A stretch of 32,884 nucleotides of DNA from Nitrospiria bacterium. Lineage in GTDB: Bacteria; Nitrospirota; Nitrospiria; JACQBZ01. Each line of letters opens with the position of its first letter. The stretch's first letter is position 1. The notes under the pieces are model-generated. The model was not told where the DNA came from. It saw only the letters and a program-made list of their open reading frames with translations, and made no database searches. The stretch spans positions 1 to 32,884 of the forward strand of contig DATIYJ010000013.1 of NCBI GenBank assembly GCA_035517655.1. Reading direction: 5' to 3'. The position numbers and the translations under genes are program-made. This document shows, piece by piece, positions 14,724 to 25,778 of the stretch.

Positions 14724-15233
14724 TTACGATTGACGACCCTGAACCTTCCGCAGCGCATCGAGGATTTCGGACGGGCGCGGCGGGCAGCCCGAAATCTTGA
14801 CGTCCACCGGAATGTGCCGCTCGACCGGACCGGTCACGGCATAACTCCCCTTGAACATCCCGCAATCGCAGGCGCAGTCGCCCAGCGCGATCACCAATTT
14901 CGGATCCGGCGTCGCGGCATGAACGTCTTTCAGAGCTTTCTCCATATTCGCCGTGACGGGACCGGTGACCACGAGCGCGTCCGCATGGCGGGGAGAGGCC
15001 GCGATATGGATGCCGAACCGTTCCGCGTCGTAAACGGGGTTCATCAGCGCGTTCATCTCCATCTCGCAGCCGTTGCAGGAGCCGGTGTCCACCTCCCGAA
15101 TCGTGAGCGACCGGCCGAACGCCGAGGCCTTCCGGCGAACCGCATCCGAGACGTCCGGCCCGGGTTGGGTCGGCGCCGGGTACCGTCCGGTCACCTTCCC
15201 GGTCTTCAAGCTTTTCCGGATGATCCTGAACAC
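14724..15233 (-). CDS. NuoB/HyfI-like [4Fe-4S] subunit of an Ehr-type complex
   Basis: A 169-residue electron-transfer subunit. The cysteines for the proximal [4Fe-4S] (N2-type) cluster are conserved: SCNGC (Cys53, Cys56), GDCACDCG (Cys120, with Cys122 and Cys124 nearby) and SGCPPRP (Cys150). In complex I and group 4 hydrogenases this subunit passes electrons to or from the NuoD/HyfG active site at the membrane. It starts with GTG at 15233 with GGAGG seven bases upstream and follows the NuoCD-like gene by 27 bases. It is the last clear gene of the operon. Retained cluster ligands contrast with the loss of Ni-Fe ligands in its partner. Confidence 0.9.
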   Translation of the reverse strand: MFRIIRKSLKTGKVTGRYPAPTQPGPDVSDAVRRKASAFGRSLTIREVDTGSCNGCEMEMNALMNPVYDAERFGIHIAASPRHADALVVTGPVTANMEKALKDVHAATPDPKLVIALGDCACDCGMFKGSYAVTGPVERHIPVDVKISGCPPRPSEILDALRKVQGRQS

Positions 15234-15260
15234 GGTTGGTCCTCCTCTCGCCCTTTCGTT

Positions 15261-16850
15261 TTATAAATCGTTTCCGGCATAGGAAAGATCAAAACTTTTA
15301 TTGATCAGCGGAAAATCCGGGATAATATTCCCCAGCACGGCAAACTGAATCGCCGGCCAGATCACAAACGAAGGGTCCCGCACCTTGCATCGGTGGATCT
15401 TCCCCTCCTCGCCGGCCATCACGAAATAAAGAATCTCGCCCCGCCATCCTTCCACGGCCGAGAGGGCCCAGTCGCCGGGACGCGGCGCCGGCGGCATCGC
15501 AGCGGAAGTCGGCCCGGCCGGCAGGTTCTCAAGCGCCTGCCGAATCAAAGCGATCGTCTCTTGCACCTCGTCGATTCGCACCCGCAGACGGGCCCGGACA
15601 TCGCCGTAACGGTAAATCGGAACCTTGAAGGCAAGGCGGCCGTAGGCCGCGAAGGGCCGGTCCCGTCGGACGTCCCGGTCGATGCCCGCGGCGCGGCCGA
15701 CCAGACCCATCACGCCGTGATCCCTTGCGGTGCGCTCTTTGAGGATCCCCGTCGTCTCCAGGCGGTCGGTGAGCGATGCGTTATGAAAGAGTATCCGTGA
15801 CAGGTCGGAAAAATCCTCCTGAATCTCTTCCACCGCGTGTTCGATCCTCTTTGCGCCGTCGCCCGATAGGTCCACGGCGGTCCCCCCGATGACGTTCACC
15901 CCGCGCAGAAAGCGGCTGCCGGTGAGACGATCGTTGAGCTGCATGATCCGCTCCTTCATCCGGCCGCAGTGGGCCAGGGCCAGCGCATAGGCCGCGTCGT
16001 TGCAGATCGCGCCGACGTCGCCGATATGATTGTGCAGCCGCTCCAGCTCAAGGAAAAGGGTCCGGAGATACTCCGCCCGCGCAGGGACCTGAACTCCAGA
16101 AAGCGCCTCAACCGCCTGACAGTAACAGAGGCCGTGCCCGAACGACGTGTCGCCCGAAACCCGCTCCGAAAGCGCAACGCCTTCCGACCACATGAGGTTC
16201 TCGAAAAGTTTTTCAACGCCCCGATGTTTCCAAAAGTGCCGGACCTCCAACTGCATGATCGGCTCGCCGGCCACCGAAAACCGGAAATGCCCCGGCTCGA
16301 TGATCCCGGCATGAATCGGCCCGACCGGCACTTCAAACACGCCCTCCCCTTCGATCTGCCGGAAACGGTATTCTCCCACTTGACGACCCATGACATGATT
16401 CCAGGGAAAATCTTTTTTTAAGGGGTGCGTTCCTTTCGGCCAATGCTCGTGCCGGACCAGACGCCGGAGATCCGGATGCCCTTCCGCGATCAGGCCGAAC
16501 ATGTCCCGGATTTCCCGTTCGTACCACTTCGCCGCGTGAATGCGGGGCGTGATCGAGGGGAACAGACGGTCTTCTCCGGAAAGCTCCGTCTGAAGAATCA
16601 GCCACGGCCCCCCGTCCAATGCAAACAGGTAATAGATGCGGTACGCGGCCTGCCGGGGTCTCAAATCCACGGCCCATTGCAAAGAAAGCGTGCCCCGCAA
16701 ATCGGGGGCGCCGTGAATGTGGAAGGCGATCGCCGGAATGTCCTGTTTGGCCGCCGTCAGAACCGGGATCTCACGGCTATGGTCCACTCCAATAATCTTG
16801 GATCCAAAAGATTTTGTTATGGATTCGATCGCTTCATCCCGCTTCATCAT
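15261..16850 (-). CDS. NuoC-NuoD (HyfG/HycE-like) large subunit lacking Ni-Fe ligands
   Basis: A 529-residue fusion. Residues about 20-155 are a complex I 30-kDa (NuoC) domain with the signature WYEREIRDMFGL and HPLKKDFPW. The rest is a NiFe-hydrogenase-large-subunit/NuoD domain (VGPIHAGIIEPGHFRF, then HRGVEKLFE). In true group 4 hydrogenases the first CxxC reads R-x-C-G-x-C; here it is ERVSGDT (Ser232, Thr235). The C-terminal DPCxxC is replaced by FDLSYAGNDL (Ser523, Gly526). All four nickel-binding cysteines are gone, so it cannot be a normal hydrogenase. The organisation matches energy-converting-hydrogenase-related (Ehr) complexes. It starts 3 bases after the preceding gene, with GGAG upstream. 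Confidence 0.9.
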   Translation of the reverse strand: MMKRDEAIESITKSFGSKIIGVDHSREIPVLTAAKQDIPAIAFHIHGAPDLRGTLSLQWAVDLRPRQAAYRIYYLFALDGGPWLILQTELSGEDRLFPSITPRIHAAKWYEREIRDMFGLIAEGHPDLRRLVRHEHWPKGTHPLKKDFPWNHVMGRQVGEYRFRQIEGEGVFEVPVGPIHAGIIEPGHFRFSVAGEPIMQLEVRHFWKHRGVEKLFENLMWSEGVALSERVSGDTSFGHGLCYCQAVEALSGVQVPARAEYLRTLFLELERLHNHIGDVGAICNDAAYALALAHCGRMKERIMQLNDRLTGSRFLRGVNVIGGTAVDLSGDGAKRIEHAVEEIQEDFSDLSRILFHNASLTDRLETTGILKERTARDHGVMGLVGRAAGIDRDVRRDRPFAAYGRLAFKVPIYRYGDVRARLRVRIDEVQETIALIRQALENLPAGPTSAAMPPAPRPGDWALSAVEGWRGEILYFVMAGEEGKIHRCKVRDPSFVIWPAIQFAVLGNIIPDFPLINKSFDLSYAGNDL

Positions 16851-16853
16851 GGA

Positions 16854-18386
16854 TCACTCCGTTGAAATTGTCGCCACGGCCAGGCTCATCAGCCGTTTCA
16901 GAGGCTCCGGCATCAGAAACCCCAGAATCAGCAGCGCCCCGATGTTGAGGACGAGGGACAGATGCCCCCACCCCCAAGTTTCTCCCGTCCCGATTCCGGA
17001 AGGCGGATCTCCCCAGACCATCTTCATCACGCGAAACATAAGCCCTCCGAACACGACCACCGCGACGATCATGAAAAAGAAGACCAGTCCCAGATCCCGA
17101 ACCTCATCGGCAACGGTGATCGTCAAAAAATGTCCGATATGAATCGTGTCGGCGCCGTAGGCCTGCGTCGCCAGGGCAGCCGCGACCGAGAACTCGCTCA
17201 CAAACATCGATAGCGGCGGCATCCCCACCAGCGCCAGCGACGCCGCAAGGAGGGCCGCGGCCGTCAGCGGCTGGACCTTGAAGACGCCCCGCACCGAGGC
17301 GATCTCGCGGGTTTCGAACCGGATGAAAAGACGGCCGGCCGCGAAAAAGGCCAGGGACTTGGCGAGAGCGTGGTTTAAAAGATGGAAGAGGCCGCCGAAC
17401 GTGCCGAGAAACCCGCCCGCGCCGAACCCGACCATCGCGATGCCCATGTGCTCGATGCTCGAATACGCGAACAAGCGCTTGTAATCCCGCTGCACCAGCA
17501 TGAACAGCGCGGCCGTGACGAAAGAAAGAAATCCGAGCGCCAACAGAAAATTACCCGCATACCCCGGCGAGACCGTCGCGTCCACCACCATCTTGCACCG
17601 AAGAACGGCGTAGACCGCCACCGTTTCCAGAACACCCGCCAGCATGGCGACCACCGGGGCCGGCGCCTCGCTATAGGCCTCCGGAACCCAGGTGTGCATC
17701 GGGACCAGGCCGACTTTGGTGCCGTAGCCCACGAGGATGAACACGAAGGCCAGCTTCACCGCATGCGGGTCCAGCTGCGCCGCAACCCGCATCAGCTCGG
17801 TGATGTTCAACGTGGCATGGCCCTCCCCCAAGGCCCGGACGGAGGACATGTACATCAGCACCGTTCCAAACAGCGCGAGGGCGATCCCCACCGAGCATAG
17901 AATGAGATACTTCCATCCGGCTTCGAGCGAGGTCTTTCGTTTGAAAAAGTTGATCAGGAACGTCGTCGCCAGGGTCGTTCCCTCGATCGCCACCCAAAGA
18001 ATCCCGAGACTGTTGGCCAGGACGGCCAGATTCATGGCAAACACGAACAGGTGAAACAGAAAGAAGTATCGGCTCATCCGGGCCGGGGTCACGATCCCTT
18101 CCTTCCGGTAGTGCTCGAAATACGTCCGGGTATACAGGGCGGATGAAAACCCGATGACGGTGATCACGAAGAGAATGAAGCCCGAGAGCGCGTCGACCGC
18201 CATCAAGCCGTTAAAAAGCGTGAAATTCCCCTCGCGGAGGACCCGCCGGATGAGCACGGCCTCGGCCCCGATCAGGATCAGCATCACCGTCAGGTTGATG
18301 CCGTGCAAAATCCGGGGGCGCCGGGCGCCGAGACTGGCGAATCCGGCGGCCAGCGGGGCGATCAAAAGAAGCGCGACCGCGCTCAT
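16854..18386 (-). CDS. Second HyfF/NuoM-like antiporter-type membrane subunit
   Basis: A 510-residue protein with about 14 membrane segments of the proton-conducting antiporter type. It has the key TM5 glutamate (VAIEGTTL, Glu135) and TM7 lysine (GYGTKVGLVPMH, Lys224), and a VSEF glutamate in the TM12 region. At the TM8 position where the HyfB-like subunit has lysine (Lys262), this protein has Thr255, with Glu254 beside it. It is a close paralogue of the gene before it (GWKYLIL, GIALALFGTVL and RDYKRLFAYSSIEHMGI are shared almost unchanged), indicating tandem duplication. Its ATG overlaps the upstream stop by ATGA. It should form one of three pump modules of the complex. Confidence 0.9.
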   Translation of the reverse strand: MSAVALLLIAPLAAGFASLGARRPRILHGINLTVMLILIGAEAVLIRRVLREGNFTLFNGLMAVDALSGFILFVITVIGFSSALYTRTYFEHYRKEGIVTPARMSRYFFLFHLFVFAMNLAVLANSLGILWVAIEGTTLATTFLINFFKRKTSLEAGWKYLILCSVGIALALFGTVLMYMSSVRALGEGHATLNITELMRVAAQLDPHAVKLAFVFILVGYGTKVGLVPMHTWVPEAYSEAPAPVVAMLAGVLETVAVYAVLRCKMVVDATVSPGYAGNFLLALGFLSFVTAALFMLVQRDYKRLFAYSSIEHMGIAMVGFGAGGFLGTFGGLFHLLNHALAKSLAFFAAGRLFIRFETREIASVRGVFKVQPLTAAALLAASLALVGMPPLSMFVSEFSVAAALATQAYGADTIHIGHFLTITVADEVRDLGLVFFFMIVAVVVFGGLMFRVMKMVWGDPPSGIGTGETWGWGHLSLVLNIGALLILGFLMPEPLKRLMSLAVATISTE

Positions 18387-19867
18387 GGGATCTCCGCCAC
18401 GGCATGGAAAATGTGCGACATCGGAATGAAGAGCGCCCGGAGAAATCCCGGCATATGCATTCCGATATAACCCATCGCCACGAGATGGGCCGCGAGCGCG
18501 GCGGCGGTCAAACGGCCGCCGCCCGGCGTCATTGGACGACCCGTCTCCTTCGGTTCACCGAGGACCATCCGAAAGACCTGATACACGAGTGCGGCAAATG
18601 CCACGGCGAGAAGACCCAGGAAGAGATACGCGACCCACGGTCGTTCGTCATAAGCGCCGGCGGCGATCAGAAACTCGCTGATGAACAGGCCGAACGGCGG
18701 CATCCCGGCCAGCGCCAGCGCGGCCAGAAGCATCGCTCCGCCGACCAGCGGCATCTGCCGTAAAAGACCGGTGACGCCCTCGATGTTCTTGTGTCCATAT
18801 CGAAGCAGCACACGGCCGGCGGCGTAAAATGCCGTGGACTTGGCCAGCGCATGATTGATCATGTGAAACAAACCTCCGAAAACGCCGGCCGCCCCTCCGA
18901 CCCCGAAACCCACCAGGACGATCCCGACGTGCTCGATGCTGGAATAGGCGAAGAACCGCTTGTAATCGCGCTGGATCAGCATGAAGGTCGCGGCGATCGT
19001 CATGGACAACAGTCCCAACCCCACCATGATGGATCCCGCGAATTCCGACCCGACGGCCGGGTCGACAATGGTTTTGAGCCGGAGCACGGCGTAGAGCCCC
19101 AGGTTGAGCATGAGACCGGACAAGACGGCGCTGATCGGCGTGGGCGCCTCGGCGTGCGCATCCGGCAGCCAGGCATGCATGGGCGCAATTCCGGCCTTGG
19201 TGCCGTATCCGATCACGATAAAAATGAAGGCCAGCTCCAGCGCGGTCGGGTTCAGGTCCGATGCGACGCGGTGCAACGCGCTCCACTGCAGAGCCTCCAT
19301 TCGGACCCCCAGAACATGTTCCGAGGCATAATAGACCAGGACGGTGCCGAACAGGGCCAGCGCGATTCCGACGAAACTGAGGATGATGTATTTCCAGCCC
19401 GCCTCCAACGCCGTTTTGGTTCTCTCGAAGTTGATCAGGAGAGCGGCCGAGAGGGTCGAACCCTCGATAGCGATCCACATCAGGGCGATATTATCGAGAT
19501 TGACCGCGAGCACCATCGCGAACAAAAACAGATCGAAATAGACAAAGAAGCGCCGGTAGCGCAGAAACTCCACCTCCCCGCGCGAGAGTTTTTCTCCCAT
19601 GTAGCCGACGGCATAGAACAGCGCCGTTCCTCCCACGAAGGCGAGCATGAGATCCATAAATGCGCTCAGGGCATCGGCGCGCAGAAGGGATCCGAACGAC
19701 ACATCGTCACCCGCAGCGACGCCGGCGACGACCGCGGCCATGGCGGCCCACAACACCACGGCATGACCCAGTTGAAGCCGCTCCATGGACCTCCGACTTT
19801 TCGTGGCCAAGCTCAACAGAGCGGAGAACAACGGGGCGGCGATCATCCCGATCAGGGCCGGATCCAT
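18383..19867 (-). CDS. hyfF: HyfF/NuoM-like antiporter-type membrane subunit
   Basis: A 494-residue polytopic membrane subunit related to HyfF and NuoM. TM5 carries Glu135 (IAIEGSTL), TM7 Lys224 (GYGTKAGIAPMH) and the TM12 region ISEF. The canonical TM8 lysine is replaced by Asn255 (GLMLNLGLY). The family motif AHAEAPTPISAVLSG follows TM7. It starts at ATG 19867, two bases after the HyfE-like stop, with AAGGAG just upstream, and overlaps its duplicate by ATGA. Such subunits move protons or sodium when the complex turns over; direction is not given by sequence. Confidence 0.9.
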   Translation of the reverse strand: MDPALIGMIAAPLFSALLSLATKSRRSMERLQLGHAVVLWAAMAAVVAGVAAGDDVSFGSLLRADALSAFMDLMLAFVGGTALFYAVGYMGEKLSRGEVEFLRYRRFFVYFDLFLFAMVLAVNLDNIALMWIAIEGSTLSAALLINFERTKTALEAGWKYIILSFVGIALALFGTVLVYYASEHVLGVRMEALQWSALHRVASDLNPTALELAFIFIVIGYGTKAGIAPMHAWLPDAHAEAPTPISAVLSGLMLNLGLYAVLRLKTIVDPAVGSEFAGSIMVGLGLLSMTIAATFMLIQRDYKRFFAYSSIEHVGIVLVGFGVGGAAGVFGGLFHMINHALAKSTAFYAAGRVLLRYGHKNIEGVTGLLRQMPLVGGAMLLAALALAGMPPFGLFISEFLIAAGAYDERPWVAYLFLGLLAVAFAALVYQVFRMVLGEPKETGRPMTPGGGRLTAAALAAHLVAMGYIGMHMPGFLRALFIPMSHIFHAVAEIP

Positions 19868-19869
19868 GA

Positions 19870-20535
19870 TTACTCCTTTAACGCCGTGAGCTTGGTGGTG
19901 TCCACGCTGTCGAAGGTGTCCTGAAGCCGGTGGGTGTAGATCCCGACGATCAGTCCGGCCACGAGGACGTCGAAGAACACCCCGAGTTCCACGATCAACG
20001 GCATCCCGTAAGCCGCCGCCGTCGCCCCCAGAAACAGCCCGTTCTCGATCACCAGGAAACCGATCACCTGGGTCACCGCTTTTTTCCTTGCGATCATCGT
20101 AAAGAAACCGATGAGTACAATGGCGAGAGCGATTGCCAGGGAATCCTGGGTCAGGAGGAAGCCCAGACTGATAATCGGCTGCGTGATATAGAACGCCAGA
20201 ATGACCAACGCGCCGCAGACGAGGAGCGAGGAGGGGATGTTGATGTTGAGTTCCAGCTCCCGTTTGACGTTCAGACGCTCGATCACGGCTTTCAGAATGC
20301 GCGGAAGGACCACCACCTTGATGACGACCGTCAGAGCGGCCGCGACATAGATGTGATACGCCCCGGTCAGGAAGGCGACGAGGGCGGCCGTCACGGCCAG
20401 AAAAACGGACTGCAGCGCGAACAGGTCCACGCAGGCGGACAGGCGCCGCTGCGCGATGATCGCAAAACAGGTCAGCAACAGCAGCGCGGAGCAGAAATTC
20501 ACAAGCTGGGAACCAATATCGGGGTGGATGGCCAT
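19870..20535 (-). CDS. hyfE: HyfE-like membrane subunit
   Basis: A 221-residue protein with about seven membrane segments and no cysteine cluster. It matches HyfE of hydrogenase-4, whose C-terminal half is related to NuoK: the block TQVIGFLVIENGLFLGA carries the membrane glutamate that lines the proton path. A charged loop (RILKAVIERLNVKRELELN) separates the two halves. The gene lies 9 bases after the HyfC-like stop and directly before the first HyfF-like gene, the same order as in hyf-type operons. Confidence 0.88.
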   Translation of the reverse strand: MAIHPDIGSQLVNFCSALLLLTCFAIIAQRRLSACVDLFALQSVFLAVTAALVAFLTGAYHIYVAAALTVVIKVVVLPRILKAVIERLNVKRELELNINIPSSLLVCGALVILAFYITQPIISLGFLLTQDSLAIALAIVLIGFFTMIARKKAVTQVIGFLVIENGLFLGATAAAYGMPLIVELGVFFDVLVAGLIVGIYTHRLQDTFDSVDTTKLTALKE

Positions 20536-20544
20536 CGTACGCCG

Positions 20545-21495
20545 TCAGCCTCTCAAGATATAAAAGAAGATGATCGCCAGGAGCGAGAGAATAAACGCCA
20601 GCCCCAGAAAATCCGTCACGCGAAAGAGCCGGAGCTTCGCGAACATGGATTCAATGACGCCGATGAGCGCGGCCAATACGGAAATCTTGACCCACCAGAC
20701 CGCAAGCCCGAATCCCATCCAGACCGGCGCCGCTTCCGTCGCGATTCCCCACGGGGCAAAGATGTTGCTGAGCAGGGTCAGAAACAGCAGCAGCTTCATC
20801 GCGGAGGCCCACTCGACCAGGGCGAGATACCGGCCCGAATACTCTAAGATCATCGCCTCATGGATCATGGTCAACTCCAGGTGCGTCGCGGGATTGTCCA
20901 CCGGAACCCGCCCGGTCTCGGCGAGGGTCACGATGAACAGCGCCGCAAGGGCCATCAGATGCGGCGGAGGATCCGTCACGACTCCCTGCAGAAGAGCCGT
21001 CTTGTGAACGATCGTGCTCAGGTTGGTGGAACCGGCCGTCAGACCGACCGCGAAGATGGACAGAATCATCGCCGGCTCGGTCAGCGCGGCCACGATCGCC
21101 TCCCGGCTGCCGCCCATGCCCCCGAATGCGGAGCCGGCGTCCAGCCCGGCGAGGATGAGAAAGAAGGTTCCGATGGCGAGAAGATAGACCACGGTGATGA
21201 TATCCCCCGCGAAATTGAGCGGAACCTGCGATACAAAGACCGGAACGAGGAGGGCCGCCGCAAGCGTGGAGGCAAAAAGAATGTACGGCGTGGCGGTAAA
21301 GATCCAGGACGTGTGGGTCGAGGCCACCACGTCCTTGCGGAACAGTTTGGCCATATCATAGTAGGGCTGCAGGAGGCTCGGGCCCCGACGGCACTGAAGA
21401 TGGGCCTTCACCTTCCGGATCAGCCCGACCGGGAACGGCGAGACCGCAAGAATCACGACGGCTTGAACAACGATGATTAAAACGGCTTCCAACAT
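20545..21495 (-). CDS. hyfC: HyfC/NuoH-like membrane anchor subunit
   Basis: A 316-residue membrane subunit of the NuoH/HyfC family, the part that contacts the peripheral arm and, in complex I, forms the quinone chamber. Signature blocks are RRGPSLLQPYYDMAKLFRKD after the first membrane helix, GLDAGSAFGGMGGSREA in the middle, and AETGRVPVDNPATHLELTM followed by IHEAMILEYSGR. The acidic residues of these loops are intact. ATG at 21495 is 5 bases after the HyfB-like stop; a GTG at 21513 in frame would overlap that gene by 13 bases and add six residues. Confidence 0.92.
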   Translation of the reverse strand: MLEAVLIIVVQAVVILAVSPFPVGLIRKVKAHLQCRRGPSLLQPYYDMAKLFRKDVVASTHTSWIFTATPYILFASTLAAALLVPVFVSQVPLNFAGDIITVVYLLAIGTFFLILAGLDAGSAFGGMGGSREAIVAALTEPAMILSIFAVGLTAGSTNLSTIVHKTALLQGVVTDPPPHLMALAALFIVTLAETGRVPVDNPATHLELTMIHEAMILEYSGRYLALVEWASAMKLLLFLTLLSNIFAPWGIATEAAPVWMGFGLAVWWVKISVLAALIGVIESMFAKLRLFRVTDFLGLAFILSLLAIIFFYILRG

Positions 21496-21500
21496 GACGG

Positions 21501-23555
21501 TCACCGCACCCACAGCAGGAGAATGAGCAGGGTCAAAAAGATATAGGTCAGATACAGATGAAGGCTCCCGGCCTGCACGACGCGTAGCCGGTCCGCGATG
21601 CGGTTCAACATCCGAACCACGGGGTCGTACAGGACCTTCTGAAACACCGGCTCGATGTGCGTCTCAAAGCGCATCCGCTTGGCGAAGTAGTGCGATTCCT
21701 CCAACATTTCCGTTTCCAGCTTCACCGTCGGGCGATAGATCATGCTGAAGACCTGTTTGATCGGTTGTGAAAACCCGGTTGCGGTATACTCCATCCGCGG
21801 CTTCAGATTGATCCCGCAGCCCCAGGTATGGGAGTAGCGTTTGCGAAGCCTTCCTCCCAGAGCCGCCGCGGCGAGCAGACCCGCCGGAATCAGGATCACC
21901 AGCAGGATCGCCAGCACCGGCGTCGAGATACTGGCAAACCCGATCCCCATCCCGGGCATGAGCGCCAGCCCGCTTACGGAAAGGACGCGTCCCGCGATCG
22001 ACGCCCCGGTGTACGGCGCCGTGACCCGGTCGATCATCGGGACCACTCCCATCGGGGCCAGCCCCAGCGCCACACAAAAAAGCGCCATCTCCGCCATACC
22101 GATGCGCATCGCCCACGGCACTTCCCGGGCCTCCCGCGCGTGAGCGCTTCGCGGCATCGCCAGAAACGAGATTCCGAATGCCTTGGCGAAGCAGGCCAAT
22201 GCGAGCACGCCGGTCAGGGCCAGCATGGCCGCGCCGATCGGAAGCATGATCTTCATCAGGACATCCGGAATCTGGAAGCTCAGGAACAGGCTCTGGAACG
22301 TCAGCCACTCGCTCACGAAGCCGTTGCTCGGAGGAAGCGCCGAAATCGAGACGGCGCCCACCAGGAAGAAAAACGCGGTCCAGGGCATTTTCCGGATCAG
22401 CCCCCCGTATTCCTCCATGTTGCGCGTGTGCGTGGCATACAGCGTCGACCCCGCGCCCAGGAAGAGAAGTCCCTTGAACATGGCGTGATTGATCGTATGA
22501 TAGAGTCCGGCCAGAAGTCCGAGAGCCGCCAGATTGGACAGGCCGTAGGACTGGAAAATCATCCCGGCGCCGATCCCCATGAGAATGATCCCGATGTTTT
22601 CGACGCTGTGGTAAGCCAGCAGACTTTTCAGGTCGTGCTCCATCAACGCGTACATCACGCCGAGCAGGGCCGAGACGGCCCCGATGGCCAGGACGATGAA
22701 TCCCCACGTCCATGGAAAGCTCCCGCCCAGGAAATCGAAATAGACCCGAATCAGGCCGTAGATCGCGGTCTTGATCATGACCCCGGACATCAGGGCCGAG
22801 ACGTGCGACGGCGCGGCCGGATGGGCATAGGGCAGCCAGACGTGGAGCGGCACGATCCCGGCCTTGGTCCCGAACCCGATCAGCGCCGTCGCAAAGGCCA
22901 GCGTTCGGAATCCCTCCGGAAGCGGCGCGGCCGGATGTCGAAAAGCCTCGAAGGAGAAGCTTCCGGCCTGCTGGTAGAACACGAGGTAGGTCACGATGAT
23001 GAAGGCCGTTCCGACATGGGTCATGATCAGGTAGAAAAATCCGGCGTAGCGCGTCTCGGGTTTTTCATGCTCCGTGACGACGAGGAAGTAGGAGACCAGC
23101 GACATGAGCTCCCAGACGATCAGAAAGAAAAACCCGTCGTCGGCCAGAACCACGAGCGTCATTGAAAGCAGGAACGCATTGTAGAGGCCTCCGAGGACGC
23201 CGATGGAACAACGGCCCTCGAACTCCCGCACGTACCCCATCGCAAATTGCGACACCGAAAATCCGGCCAATGAAATGATCAGAACAAAAAAGGATGCCAG
23301 AGGATCCACGCGAATCTGAAATTCAAGCAGCGGCAGGTTGGAGGGAAGCGAGAAGGTCGCGGCCGATGGAGCGAAAAGCCCCGCGAGGCCCAATACGACG
23401 CCCGCGGCGGACGCGGCCGTCGCGGCCCCGTGGGCCACAAGATTCTGGAGATGGGCGTTCCGGTAGAAAGCGAAGGGAAGGATGATTCCTATTCCATACA
23501 GGATGACGACGCTTAGAAAGGCCCAATGAATAATCCAGGACAGGTCAAACGACAA
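21501..23555 (-). CDS. hyfB: HyfB/NuoL-like membrane subunit
   Basis: A 684-residue antiporter-type subunit with 14-16 membrane segments. Pump residues are complete: TM5 Glu149 (IVWELMS), TM7 Lys231 (GFGTKAGIVPLH), TM8 Lys262 (GVMIKTAIYG), a lysine in NHAMFKGLLFLGAG, and a glutamate in FVSEWL. The C-terminal 120 residues (SHTWGCGINLKPRMEYTATG onward) are the extension found in HyfB/HycC and end in a last membrane helix. The start is TTG at 23555, supported by AAGGAG eight bases before it. It lies 40 bases after the CO-dehydrogenase-beta-like gene and opens the membrane part of the operon. Confidence 0.92.
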   Translation of the reverse strand: MSFDLSWIIHWAFLSVVILYGIGIILPFAFYRNAHLQNLVAHGAATAASAAGVVLGLAGLFAPSAATFSLPSNLPLLEFQIRVDPLASFFVLIISLAGFSVSQFAMGYVREFEGRCSIGVLGGLYNAFLLSMTLVVLADDGFFFLIVWELMSLVSYFLVVTEHEKPETRYAGFFYLIMTHVGTAFIIVTYLVFYQQAGSFSFEAFRHPAAPLPEGFRTLAFATALIGFGTKAGIVPLHVWLPYAHPAAPSHVSALMSGVMIKTAIYGLIRVYFDFLGGSFPWTWGFIVLAIGAVSALLGVMYALMEHDLKSLLAYHSVENIGIILMGIGAGMIFQSYGLSNLAALGLLAGLYHTINHAMFKGLLFLGAGSTLYATHTRNMEEYGGLIRKMPWTAFFFLVGAVSISALPPSNGFVSEWLTFQSLFLSFQIPDVLMKIMLPIGAAMLALTGVLALACFAKAFGISFLAMPRSAHAREAREVPWAMRIGMAEMALFCVALGLAPMGVVPMIDRVTAPYTGASIAGRVLSVSGLALMPGMGIGFASISTPVLAILLVILIPAGLLAAAALGGRLRKRYSHTWGCGINLKPRMEYTATGFSQPIKQVFSMIYRPTVKLETEMLEESHYFAKRMRFETHIEPVFQKVLYDPVVRMLNRIADRLRVVQAGSLHLYLTYIFLTLLILLLWVR

Positions 23556-23595: not shown

Positions 23596-24513
23596 TTAAG
23601 CTTTCGCCTGTCCTCTTATTGCCCTGCCCATGGATCGGATGTCCGCCCCTTTCAGGAAATAGTGGTCATAAACAGCCTCCAAAAACAGTTTACCATCATG
23701 GAGATAATATTTACAACCATCCAGACCGGCCACCCCGGTTGCATTAAAACGGGCCGCCAGGTCGGGCGCATTGCATAGGACGACGCCGTCCTTGAGTTTA
23801 AAGACGACGCCGATTCGATCCGGAAAATTGATCACGACTTTTTGCACGTGGCTTGTCCCTTCTTCGACGGCCGCACGCTTATGATTTTTACTTCTGTCTC
23901 TCTTCGCCGGCGTCTGCCGTTTCTCGCGACCGTCGCCGTGAGGCTCCGATTTTAACCGAGCAACCGCTTCGGCCAGACTCAGGATTTTCCGGGCGGTGAG
24001 ATCACGGATCGTGATGTTCGCCTCCTCATCGCCGCTGAACGTGCACAAAGCAATCGTATAGCAGGCGGTCCCGCCGCGAATCATCTTAAGCGCGATGTTC
24101 GACGGATGGCAGTGAACGCCGACAAAAAGGCAGACATCGATCTTGTTGTGCCAGATCGTCAAATTGGGGTGATTCGGGTTGATCTCCACCGCCGGATTGA
24201 CTTTCGGATATTTCGGGCGGTAATCGGCCATCGGAATAATTCTCGCGGGGATGGAGTCCGCCAGAATCTTCACCGCCTTGGCCTCCGCCGAAGCCTGCTC
24301 GCTCCATTTCCACAGCACCAGCGGACCGGGAAAAATGGCCGGCATCTTTGCCCCAAGCAGTTTCCGCGCGGCCGTCTCGATGGCCTTGTCTTCCGGAACA
24401 ATTTCCCCCTCAAGCAGGGCCTGCCCCGGCTCGGCCAGAATCACTCCCATCATCGCAGCCGCGGGAGGGAGATAGGCTTCCGGTCCGGGCAAAACGCGGT
24501 ATGGTTCTCTCAC
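23596..24513 (-). CDS. CO-dehydrogenase beta / acetyl-CoA synthase epsilon-like protein with extra C-terminal domain
   Basis: A 305-residue protein. Residues about 1-190 resemble the CO dehydrogenase beta / acetyl-CoA synthase epsilon family (Rossmann-like DHS fold): PAIFPGPLVLWKW, then a NKIDVCLFVGVHCH strand-loop and IRGGTACYTIALC. A basic linker (about 195-225) leads to an 80-residue C-terminal domain (VVINFPDRIGVVFKLKDGV) that I do not recognise. Catalytic CODH subunits are absent, so the name reflects fold only; such genes occur beside 2-oxoacid:ferredoxin oxidoreductases, for which an accessory role is plausible. GTG at 24513 overlaps the upstream stop by 4 bases and has AAAGGAG seven bases before it. 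Confidence 0.65.
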   Translation of the reverse strand: MREPYRVLPGPEAYLPPAAAMMGVILAEPGQALLEGEIVPEDKAIETAARKLLGAKMPAIFPGPLVLWKWSEQASAEAKAVKILADSIPARIIPMADYRPKYPKVNPAVEINPNHPNLTIWHNKIDVCLFVGVHCHPSNIALKMIRGGTACYTIALCTFSGDEEANITIRDLTARKILSLAEAVARLKSEPHGDGREKRQTPAKRDRSKNHKRAAVEEGTSHVQKVVINFPDRIGVVFKLKDGVVLCNAPDLAARFNATGVAGLDGCKYYLHDGKLFLEAVYDHYFLKGADIRSMGRAIRGQAKA

Positions 24514-24857
24514 GCTTGCGCTCCTTTCAATCGGCCGGCGTTCAACCGGCTTAATGGGTTTTCAATGTCGAGGGGATTTAAATGAGTCTTCCCCCCGTTC
24601 ATATGAATCTGCACCGGTGTCAGTTTCACCGTTTTGCCGCCCTTCGGCATGGGGATCTTCAATTCCCCTCGGACGCGTCGGAAAATCTCAATAATGTGGT
24701 CCATCTTCTTGACGTCGAAATCGCGCACGCTCAGCATCGCATCTTCATGGGCATCGTGACAGATCACGGTCGTCAAGCAATTCGACCCGGCCCGGATGAT
24801 CCGGAGGGTCAGGTTGGCGTAGTGACAATGCACGCCGATGAAGAGACAGACCTCATC
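24510..24857 (-). pseudogene. 5'-truncated paralogue of the CO-dehydrogenase-beta-like gene
   Basis: The readable frame from about 24857 encodes DEVCLFIGVHCHYANLTLR and onward for about 115 residues. This aligns with the middle of the following gene (GVHCHPSN..KMIRGGTACYT against GVHCHYAN..RIIRAGSNCLT), but the first 120 or so residues of the family are missing. Upstream of 24857 the same DNA instead encodes the gamma subunit in another frame. A GTG at 24833 could still start a short product of 107 residues. The 3' half, including its own C-terminal segment (TPVQIHMNGGKTHLNPLDIE), looks undamaged and couples to the next gene by GTGA. Confidence 0.6.
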
Positions 24858-25048
24858 CGGAGTTGGAACGCGACCTCGCCTCCCCTGATTTCCGGCGTAA
24901 ACGTCGATTCGGCTAAAACACGCATTCCGCTTTGGGCCGCCGCTCGCTGGAGCACTTCCCCGGCGGTAACAACGCCCTGACCTCCTTCGCCCGCAATGCG
25001 AATGATCAGATCCTCCCGATCCATGGCCGCGTTCATATCAAAAGACAA
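24809..25048 (-). pseudogene. 3'-truncated 2-oxoacid:acceptor oxidoreductase gamma subunit
   Basis: The first 65 or so residues match the gamma domain of pyruvate/2-oxoglutarate:ferredoxin oxidoreductases: LIIRIAGEGGQGVVTAGEVL is the glycine-rich nucleotide-binding start and STFTPEIRGGEVAFQLR the next conserved block. The family normally runs to about 180 residues; here homology stops near 24855 and the frame ends 15 codons later. No alpha or beta subunit is present. AGGAG precedes a TTG at 25048 by seven bases; ATGs at 25036 and 25024 are alternatives. It would be the first gene of the Ehr operon transcript, opposite the Fur-family gene. Confidence 0.65.
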
Positions 25049-25074
25049 CAAACATCTCCTTGCGGTTTATTGAA

Positions 25075-25346: not shown

Positions 25347-25778
25347 ATGAGAAAGCACAAAGACCTGCTCGCCGTTTTGCGGCATAACCGCCAGCGCGTC
25401 ACCCCCGCGCGCCGGTTCCTGCTTCAGCTCTTCATCGACAACCACGCCCGCTCGCTCTCGCTTCCCGAGATCCAGACGCATCTTCAAGACCGCCTCCCGG
25501 GGATCAACCGGTCCAGCATCTACCGTAATCTCGAAATGCTCAAAGCGCTCAGCATCATTCAAGAGCTGCGCGTGGCCCGCAAGGGTCGTCGTTATCAATT
25601 TGTGTTCGAACGCCCCGTGCACCACTTCATCATCTGCAAGGCCTGCGGCAAAGTGAGCAAGGGCAAGCGCGGCTTCTTCGAACGGGTCGAGCGCGCCCTT
25701 GAGGACATTCACGATTTTAAGAAGGCGAACCTGTCGGTCACCTTTTACGGATTCTGCAGCCGCTGCCGGGAGGACTGA
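25347..25778 (+). CDS. Fur-family metal- or peroxide-responsive repressor
   Basis: A 143-residue regulator. The N-terminal winged helix includes RQRVTPARRFLLQLF and the recognition helix NRSSIYRNLEML. The C-terminal domain has the two structural zinc pairs CKAC (Cys97, Cys100) and CSRC (Cys137, Cys140) and a PVHHF sequence supplying regulatory metal-site histidines. Whether it senses iron, zinc, nickel, manganese or peroxide cannot be decided; the reduced histidine content (HH rather than a longer His run) is unlike classical Fur. GAGGA lies about 12 bases before the ATG. It is divergent from the Ehr operon with a palindromic site between them. Confidence 0.9.
   Translation: MRKHKDLLAVLRHNRQRVTPARRFLLQLFIDNHARSLSLPEIQTHLQDRLPGINRSSIYRNLEMLKALSIIQELRVARKGRRYQFVFERPVHHFIICKACGKVSKGKRGFFERVERALEDIHDFKKANLSVTFYGFCSRCRED

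Follow-up and report, generated by a model that had tools for sequence, protein, structure and literature searches.

A hydrogenase-4-like Ehr complex without Ni-Fe ligands and its OFOR-derived gene neighbours in a Nitrospiria bacterium

Introduction

What can a hydrogenase-like membrane complex do when none of its Ni-Fe ligands is left, and with which soluble partner would it exchange electrons? The question is raised by a gene cluster on contig C13 of a Nitrospiria genome (2.65 Mb in 71 contigs); the whole stretch analysed, 32,884 nucleotides, is called the window here. Complexes of this kind were named Ehr in Geobacter (PMC7894505) and occur in about half of Nitrospirales, where their function is unknown (PMC12342949). 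An earlier note on this DNA had classed the cluster as Ehr-type, with the Ni-Fe ligands lost and the substrate not established, a description that agrees with both the conserved absence of the ligands and the separate clade formed by the large subunits, as set out below.

Gene content of the locus

Genes and sites of the locus are given with coordinates, strand and the basis of assignment.

14724..15233, minus strand: small subunit (NuoB/HyfI-like) with one [4Fe-4S] site (C53, C56, C120, C150); Oxidored_q6, 117 bits
15261..16850, minus strand: large subunit, a NuoC-NuoD fusion (EhrL/HyfG-like) of 529 aa without Ni-Fe ligands; Complex1_30kDa and Complex1_49kDa in one ORF
15273..15284, minus strand: codons 523-526 (S-Y-A-G), at the place of the second Ni-Fe CxxC; HycE alignment
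16146..16157, minus strand: codons 232-235 (S-G-D-T), at the place of the first Ni-Fe CxxC; HycE alignment
16854..18386, minus strand: HyfF2, antiporter-like; Proton_antipo_M and tree clade
18383..19867, minus strand: HyfF1, antiporter-like; Proton_antipo_M and tree clade
19870..20535, minus strand: HyfE (NuoK/J-like); hydrogenase 4 membrane subunit, 107 bits, below the curated cut-off of 136
20545..21513, minus strand: HyfC (NuoH-like anchor); NADHdh, 167 bits
21501..23555, minus strand: HyfB (NuoL-like); hydrogenase 4 subunit B, 753 bits, above cut-off
23596..24513, minus strand: delta2, PF02552 (OFOR delta/CdhB-like), fused to a small domain X; PF02552, 120 bits
24510..24833, minus strand: delta1 remnant, the C-terminal part of a second PF02552 gene; PF02552, 30 bits, and L010 alignment
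24809..25051, minus strand: OFOR gamma stub, the first ~50 positions of PF01558; PF01558, 47 bits
25347..25778, plus strand: Fur-family regulator, divergent from the Ehr operon; PF01475, 65 bits

Ehr subunits were identified with Pfam/NCBIfam models, and both HyfF proteins match hydrogenase-4 F. The Ehr genes overlap by 4-13 bp or are separated by short gaps, which suggests that they form one operon. Its composition as described in the earlier note (HyfB, HyfC, HyfE, two HyfF, a NuoC-NuoD fusion and NuoB) is borne out by ORFs at the positions given there and by the domain models. The span of 14724-23555 holds for the Ehr genes and fails as the upstream limit of the cluster, since the same strand continues to about 25051 with genes derived from a 2-oxoacid:ferredoxin oxidoreductase (OFOR). 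The Fur-family protein (25347-25778) is a possible regulator of Ehr.

Loss of the Ni-Fe ligands and the remaining pocket

Alignment of the large subunit with E. coli HycE places S232, T235, S523 and G526 opposite C241, C244, C531 and C534, respectively, in agreement with the earlier report that both CxxC pairs are replaced (Ser232/Thr235 and Ser523/Gly526). S232, G233, S523, Y524, G526 and D528 are invariant in 82/82 Nitrospirota Ehr large subunits, which were selected for their homology to the window protein. The stretches D512-F-P514 and N517-K-S-F520 are likewise invariant in this set; position 235 is Thr in 70 of the 82 and Ser in 10. Invariant residues are enriched between positions 507 and 528, a segment picked after viewing the alignment. 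A sequencing error is rejected as the source of the missing cysteines, which are absent from all 82 proteins. The large subunit ends in G-N-D-L, and the C-terminal tail of HycE/HyfG is absent. The small subunit, which carries a hydrogenase-type CxxC, had been said to keep its [4Fe-4S] cysteines, and it does: C53, C56 and C120 are conserved in 81/81 sequences and C150 in 80/81.

The His/Tyr pair of the NuoD quinone site is replaced by I184 and G233. Residues of the proton route common to formate hydrogenlyase (FHL) and complex I, whose roles are taken from PMC9474812, are kept: H180, E185, H275, R386 and E428 in 62/62 Ehr proteins and R470 in 61/62, E185 being the hydrogenase-type residue at its position. 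The canopy Asp position (codon 521, 15288-15290) is occupied by Asn in 55/62 Ehr proteins, and D521 of the window is the only Asp in the set. An AlphaFold2 model of the large subunit, built from three sequences, reached a pLDDT of 40. Judged from the alignments, the predicted pocket represents a third outcome for the site that hydrogenases and complex I have in common: it lacks both Ni-Fe and the quinone pair known from complex I, and the proton route is kept.

Ehr as a separate and widespread family

In a 38-row tree, Ehr large subunits form a 100/100 clade apart from HycE/HyfG, NuoD and CxxC-bearing group 4 enzymes; the references are from E. coli and Nitrospirota only, the CxxC-bearing ones coming from another Nitrospirota family (L106-L108). 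This separate clade, obtained by the alignment and tree that the earlier note had outlined, rejects nesting inside true group 4 hydrogenases. Ehr of Nitrospirales, Geobacter, Sulfobacillus and others has the same Hyf-like membrane subunits, ligand-free NuoC-D-like large subunit and single-cluster small subunit. The window differs from other Ehr loci in its second HyfF and its OFOR-derived upstream module, a comparison in which Geobacter is represented by its description rather than its sequence.

The complex shares the gene order B-C-E-F-G-I with E. coli formate hydrogenlyase/hydrogenase-4 (HycE, HyfB-I), and FHL subunit 5 is the top hit in the PDB (E 6e-86). Ehr differs from the E. coli HycE/Hyf enzymes in having no Ni-Fe ligands, cleaved C-terminal tail or HyfA/HyfH ferredoxin subunits. 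The absence of the four Ni-Fe cysteines and of the maturation-cleaved tail rejects an identity as [NiFe] hydrogenase, and that of HyfA/HyfH and formate dehydrogenase from the operon an identity as formate hydrogenlyase. NuoB/C/D/H/L/M-like parts are common to Ehr and complex I, and the second HyfF recalls the extra antiporter-like subunit of the 2M complex I of Nitrospira (PMC6606698). Complex I itself is rejected because the NuoD quinone residues are replaced and the NADH module (NuoE/F/G) is absent from the operon; the hydrogenase-type CxxC of the small subunit is a further difference.

Ammonia-oxidising archaea also have Ehr, as do plasmids of soil Pseudomonadota/Actinomycetota, and the family is widespread, not one peculiar to the Nitrospiria source genome. 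Plasmids from Cupriavidus, Rhizobium, Methylocalor, Rhodococcus and Burkholderia (L168-L172) carry Ehr cores of six genes in which the pocket motifs are the same. The source genome has a second, very divergent Ehr-like operon on contig C56 (L007 7007-13765; branch length 3.5), whose small subunit has an N-terminal ferredoxin-like piece and a His in place of the last cluster Cys.

When the window was compared with L010, L011 and L053, dN/dS was 0.05-0.24 for every intact Ehr gene and 0.18 for delta2. The Ehr complex seems, because of these low values, to be maintained despite its broken OFOR neighbour.

Membrane arm and duplication of HyfF

In HyfB, HyfF1 and HyfF2 alike, TM5 and TM12 have the Glu and TM7 the Lys of antiporter-like subunits; the Lys of TM8 is present in HyfB only. 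HyfF1 and HyfF2 each form a clade that spans several families, the former with support of 100/100 and the latter, less firmly, of 87/100. On the simplest reading of this tree, the duplication would predate Nitrospiria, one copy having later been lost in many Nitrospiraceae. Lengthening of HyfB alongside the second HyfF, as in NuoL of 2M complex I, was not seen; HyfB has ~675-685 aa with one or two HyfF. Three antiporter-like subunits are not new in number, because E. coli hydrogenase-4 has HyfB, HyfD and HyfF.

An OFOR-derived module upstream of Ehr

On the start side of HyfB, separated by 40 bp and on the same strand, lies delta2, with the delta1 piece and the start of a POR-gamma gene further upstream. 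PF02552, the domain of both deltas, marks the delta subunit in OFORs that have five subunits (PMC10052474, PMC2607301). A PDB sequence search with delta2 returned no match. In L010, which together with L011 represents close relatives (groundwater MAGs labelled 'Nitrospirae bacterium'), the order at the equivalent place is gamma-alpha (POR and POR_N), beta (TPP_enzyme_C), delta1, delta2, gene X and then Ehr, such that domain X, fused to delta2 in the window, is a separate gene. Relative to L010, a deletion of ~2.9 kb cuts the OFOR module of the window, in which no complete OFOR alpha, beta or gamma is found and gamma is a stub; the deletion junction may be an assembly fault. Relocation of the OFOR gene to a different contig is not supported, the L010 gamma-alpha query matching only the stub at high identity genome-wide.

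The module varies among relatives. L053, of the same genus, has no part of it at the equivalent place. In L055, from a different family, a beta gene accompanies a gamma-alpha gene that includes POR_N. L064, the tested example for several similar Nitrospiraceae loci, retains delta1 and delta2 along with a gamma-alpha protein from which POR_N, the TPP-binding domain, is missing. G131 has the module on the downstream side of Ehr. Like the five-subunit OFOR of Hydrogenobacter and Aquifex (PMC10052474), it contains a PF02552 delta and POR-gamma, with alpha and beta in L010/L055; it differs in its fused gamma and alpha, its two deltas and its incompleteness in the window, and no epsilon ferredoxin was seen in the L010 operon.

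PF02552 genes lie upstream on the same strand in 12 of the 43 Nitrospiria Ehr loci with readable upstream DNA (families f1, f2, f4 and f5), against an expectation of ~0.15% per locus, a rough estimate for loci that are related. They are also found near Ehr in another class (L104), and the L104 copies fall within the Ehr-linked delta2 clade (99/99). Copies from G077 and G108, labelled OFOR in the tree, fall in the delta2 clade too and both sit in the same kind of module, and the delta2 of L058 lies outside the Ehr-linked clade. The module accompanies 6/9 loci with two HyfF and 6/34 with one (Fisher p 0.008, which ignores kinship and is one of several comparisons). A literature search of limited reach found no earlier report of a gene link between OFOR and Ehr; what is described here is an OFOR-derived module upstream of Ehr, complete in some relatives and without the TPP domain in others.

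Other genes recur at these loci. Many Nitrospiria have, beside the Ehr/OFOR module, a sensor kinase paired with an NtrC-type sigma-54 regulator (L076 3-2329, L185 13843-16497 and L186 1609-4361); the window operon has no such pair beside it. In L058 1-6020 (G271), genes for DabA-type inorganic-carbon uptake and a NuoL-like partner immediately precede the deltas and Ehr. Between delta2 and HyfB, several Nitrospiraceae encode a protein (c3) of ~310 aa with a weak fn3/CarboxypepD_reg match (L064 4952-5905 and relatives).

Metabolism of the source organism

The source genome encodes ATP-citrate lyase and has two OFOR loci in which a PF02552 gene adjoins the alpha gene (contigs C14 and C44); the organism is therefore probably an rTCA autotroph. 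Contig C45 encodes a complex I that has four antiporter-like frames and in which NuoC and NuoD are separate. For Nitrospira, the literature names 2M complex I as the candidate that reduces ferredoxin (PMC6606698, PMC3578206).

Discussion

We propose, at a probability of roughly 0.4, that Ehr is an ion-translocating oxidoreductase between the 2-oxoacid/ferredoxin couple and probably quinone. The lone [4Fe-4S] cluster would relay electrons between a low-potential partner in solution and, in the metal-free pocket, an organic acceptor that is probably a quinone. Quinone is a guess because the NuoD quinone residues are absent, I184 and G233 standing in their place. The conserved residues of HyfB, HyfF1 and HyfF2 suggest that electron transfer would be coupled to ion movement through these three subunits. 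The ancestral soluble partner may have been the OFOR of the same cluster; with that partner lost in the source strain, the likeliest link would be a ferredoxin shared with the remaining OFORs. In the reverse direction, quinol and the ion gradient would yield reduced ferredoxin for CO2 fixation, and in an rTCA-type autotroph this seems slightly more likely than the forward direction.

The proposal as a whole is supported by the ligand loss fixed in 82/82 proteins, the retained proton path, the separation from hydrogenases and NuoD in the tree, purifying selection and the retained antiporter charges, as well as by the adjacent OFOR genes at 12/43 loci, the PF02552 genes near Ehr in L104, the complete subunits in L010/L055 and the delta2 clade (99/99). 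The presence of ATP-citrate lyase is a further point in its favour. Several observations count against it. No OFOR gene adjoins Ehr at 31/43 Nitrospiria loci, G108 has the module and no Ehr, and the module is catalytically incomplete in the window and in most loci that retain it. The Ehr operon has no NuoI- or ferredoxin-like subunit to join a partner to the small subunit. Finally, because the 2M candidate is published and a complex I is present on C45, Ehr would be a second system.

The OFOR neighbours might share no more than regulation with Ehr, the donor or acceptor being some other soluble compound or protein, such as a sulfur compound as in Pyrococcus MBS or a small redox protein. We regard this as possible, at well under even odds: six-gene Ehr without a partner gene occurs on the soil Pseudomonadota/Actinomycetota plasmids, many Nitrospiria Ehr loci have no OFOR module and the pocket motif resembles neither hydrogenase nor NuoD, whereas the Ehr-linked delta2 proteins, from several families and a second class, group in a clade of their own, and in the window the module sits on the same strand, 40 bp from HyfB. 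A formate-linked Ehr, in effect formate hydrogenlyase minus hydrogen, in which formate dehydrogenase donates, quinone accepts and ions are pumped, is a serious rival, if an unlikely one. All Ehr subunits of Geobacter sulfurreducens are more abundant on formate than under hydrogen-containing conditions (PMC7894505), an FDH-Ehr complex has been proposed in Margulisbacteria (PMC6349859) and formate dehydrogenases occur in many Nitrospirales (PMC12342949); against this, neither a formate dehydrogenase nor HyfA/HyfH-type ferredoxin genes were found in the window operon or among the listed neighbours of OFOR-linked loci.

Loss of the active-site metals and erosion of the OFOR neighbour could also be signs of a decaying or non-redox complex that only moves ions in the manner of an Mrp-like antiporter, as the antiporter-like subunits alone could do. 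Such a complex is made very unlikely by the [4Fe-4S] cysteines and the pocket, which rank with the best-conserved parts, and by the low dN/dS of all subunits. The proposal for Ca. Nitrospira nitrosa of a CO-dehydrogenase-linked complex gaining energy from CO draws on a 'CODH' gene reported to adjoin the hyf-like operon of that organism (PMC5596200). At the loci examined here, however, the CODH-like genes beside Ehr are PF02552 genes that group with OFOR deltas in a tree of which the Ca. N. nitrosa sequence is not a member, and no CooS/CdhA catalytic subunit is present in the window or among the listed upstream genes of OFOR-linked loci. PF02552 is found in 126/127 genomes sampled in the class, mostly in two copies; its counts were set against Ehr presence by visual inspection alone and carry no weight here. 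At the loci examined, OFOR is the better reading of the PF02552 genes, and a CO-linked role for Ehr is extremely improbable.

In the most specific form of our proposal, which we consider quite unlikely, Ehr would be an overlooked quinol-to-low-potential step of CO2 fixation in Nitrospiria: a three-pump, metal-free complex feeding an OFOR (through its deltas) or the ferredoxin of the OFOR, with a new kind of organic acceptor site at the position of the Ni-Fe centre in hydrogenases. The recurring link to OFOR genes gives Ehr a definite partner to test and counts against the CO dehydrogenase reading. It also bears on how nitrifiers obtain reduced ferredoxin for CO2 fixation.
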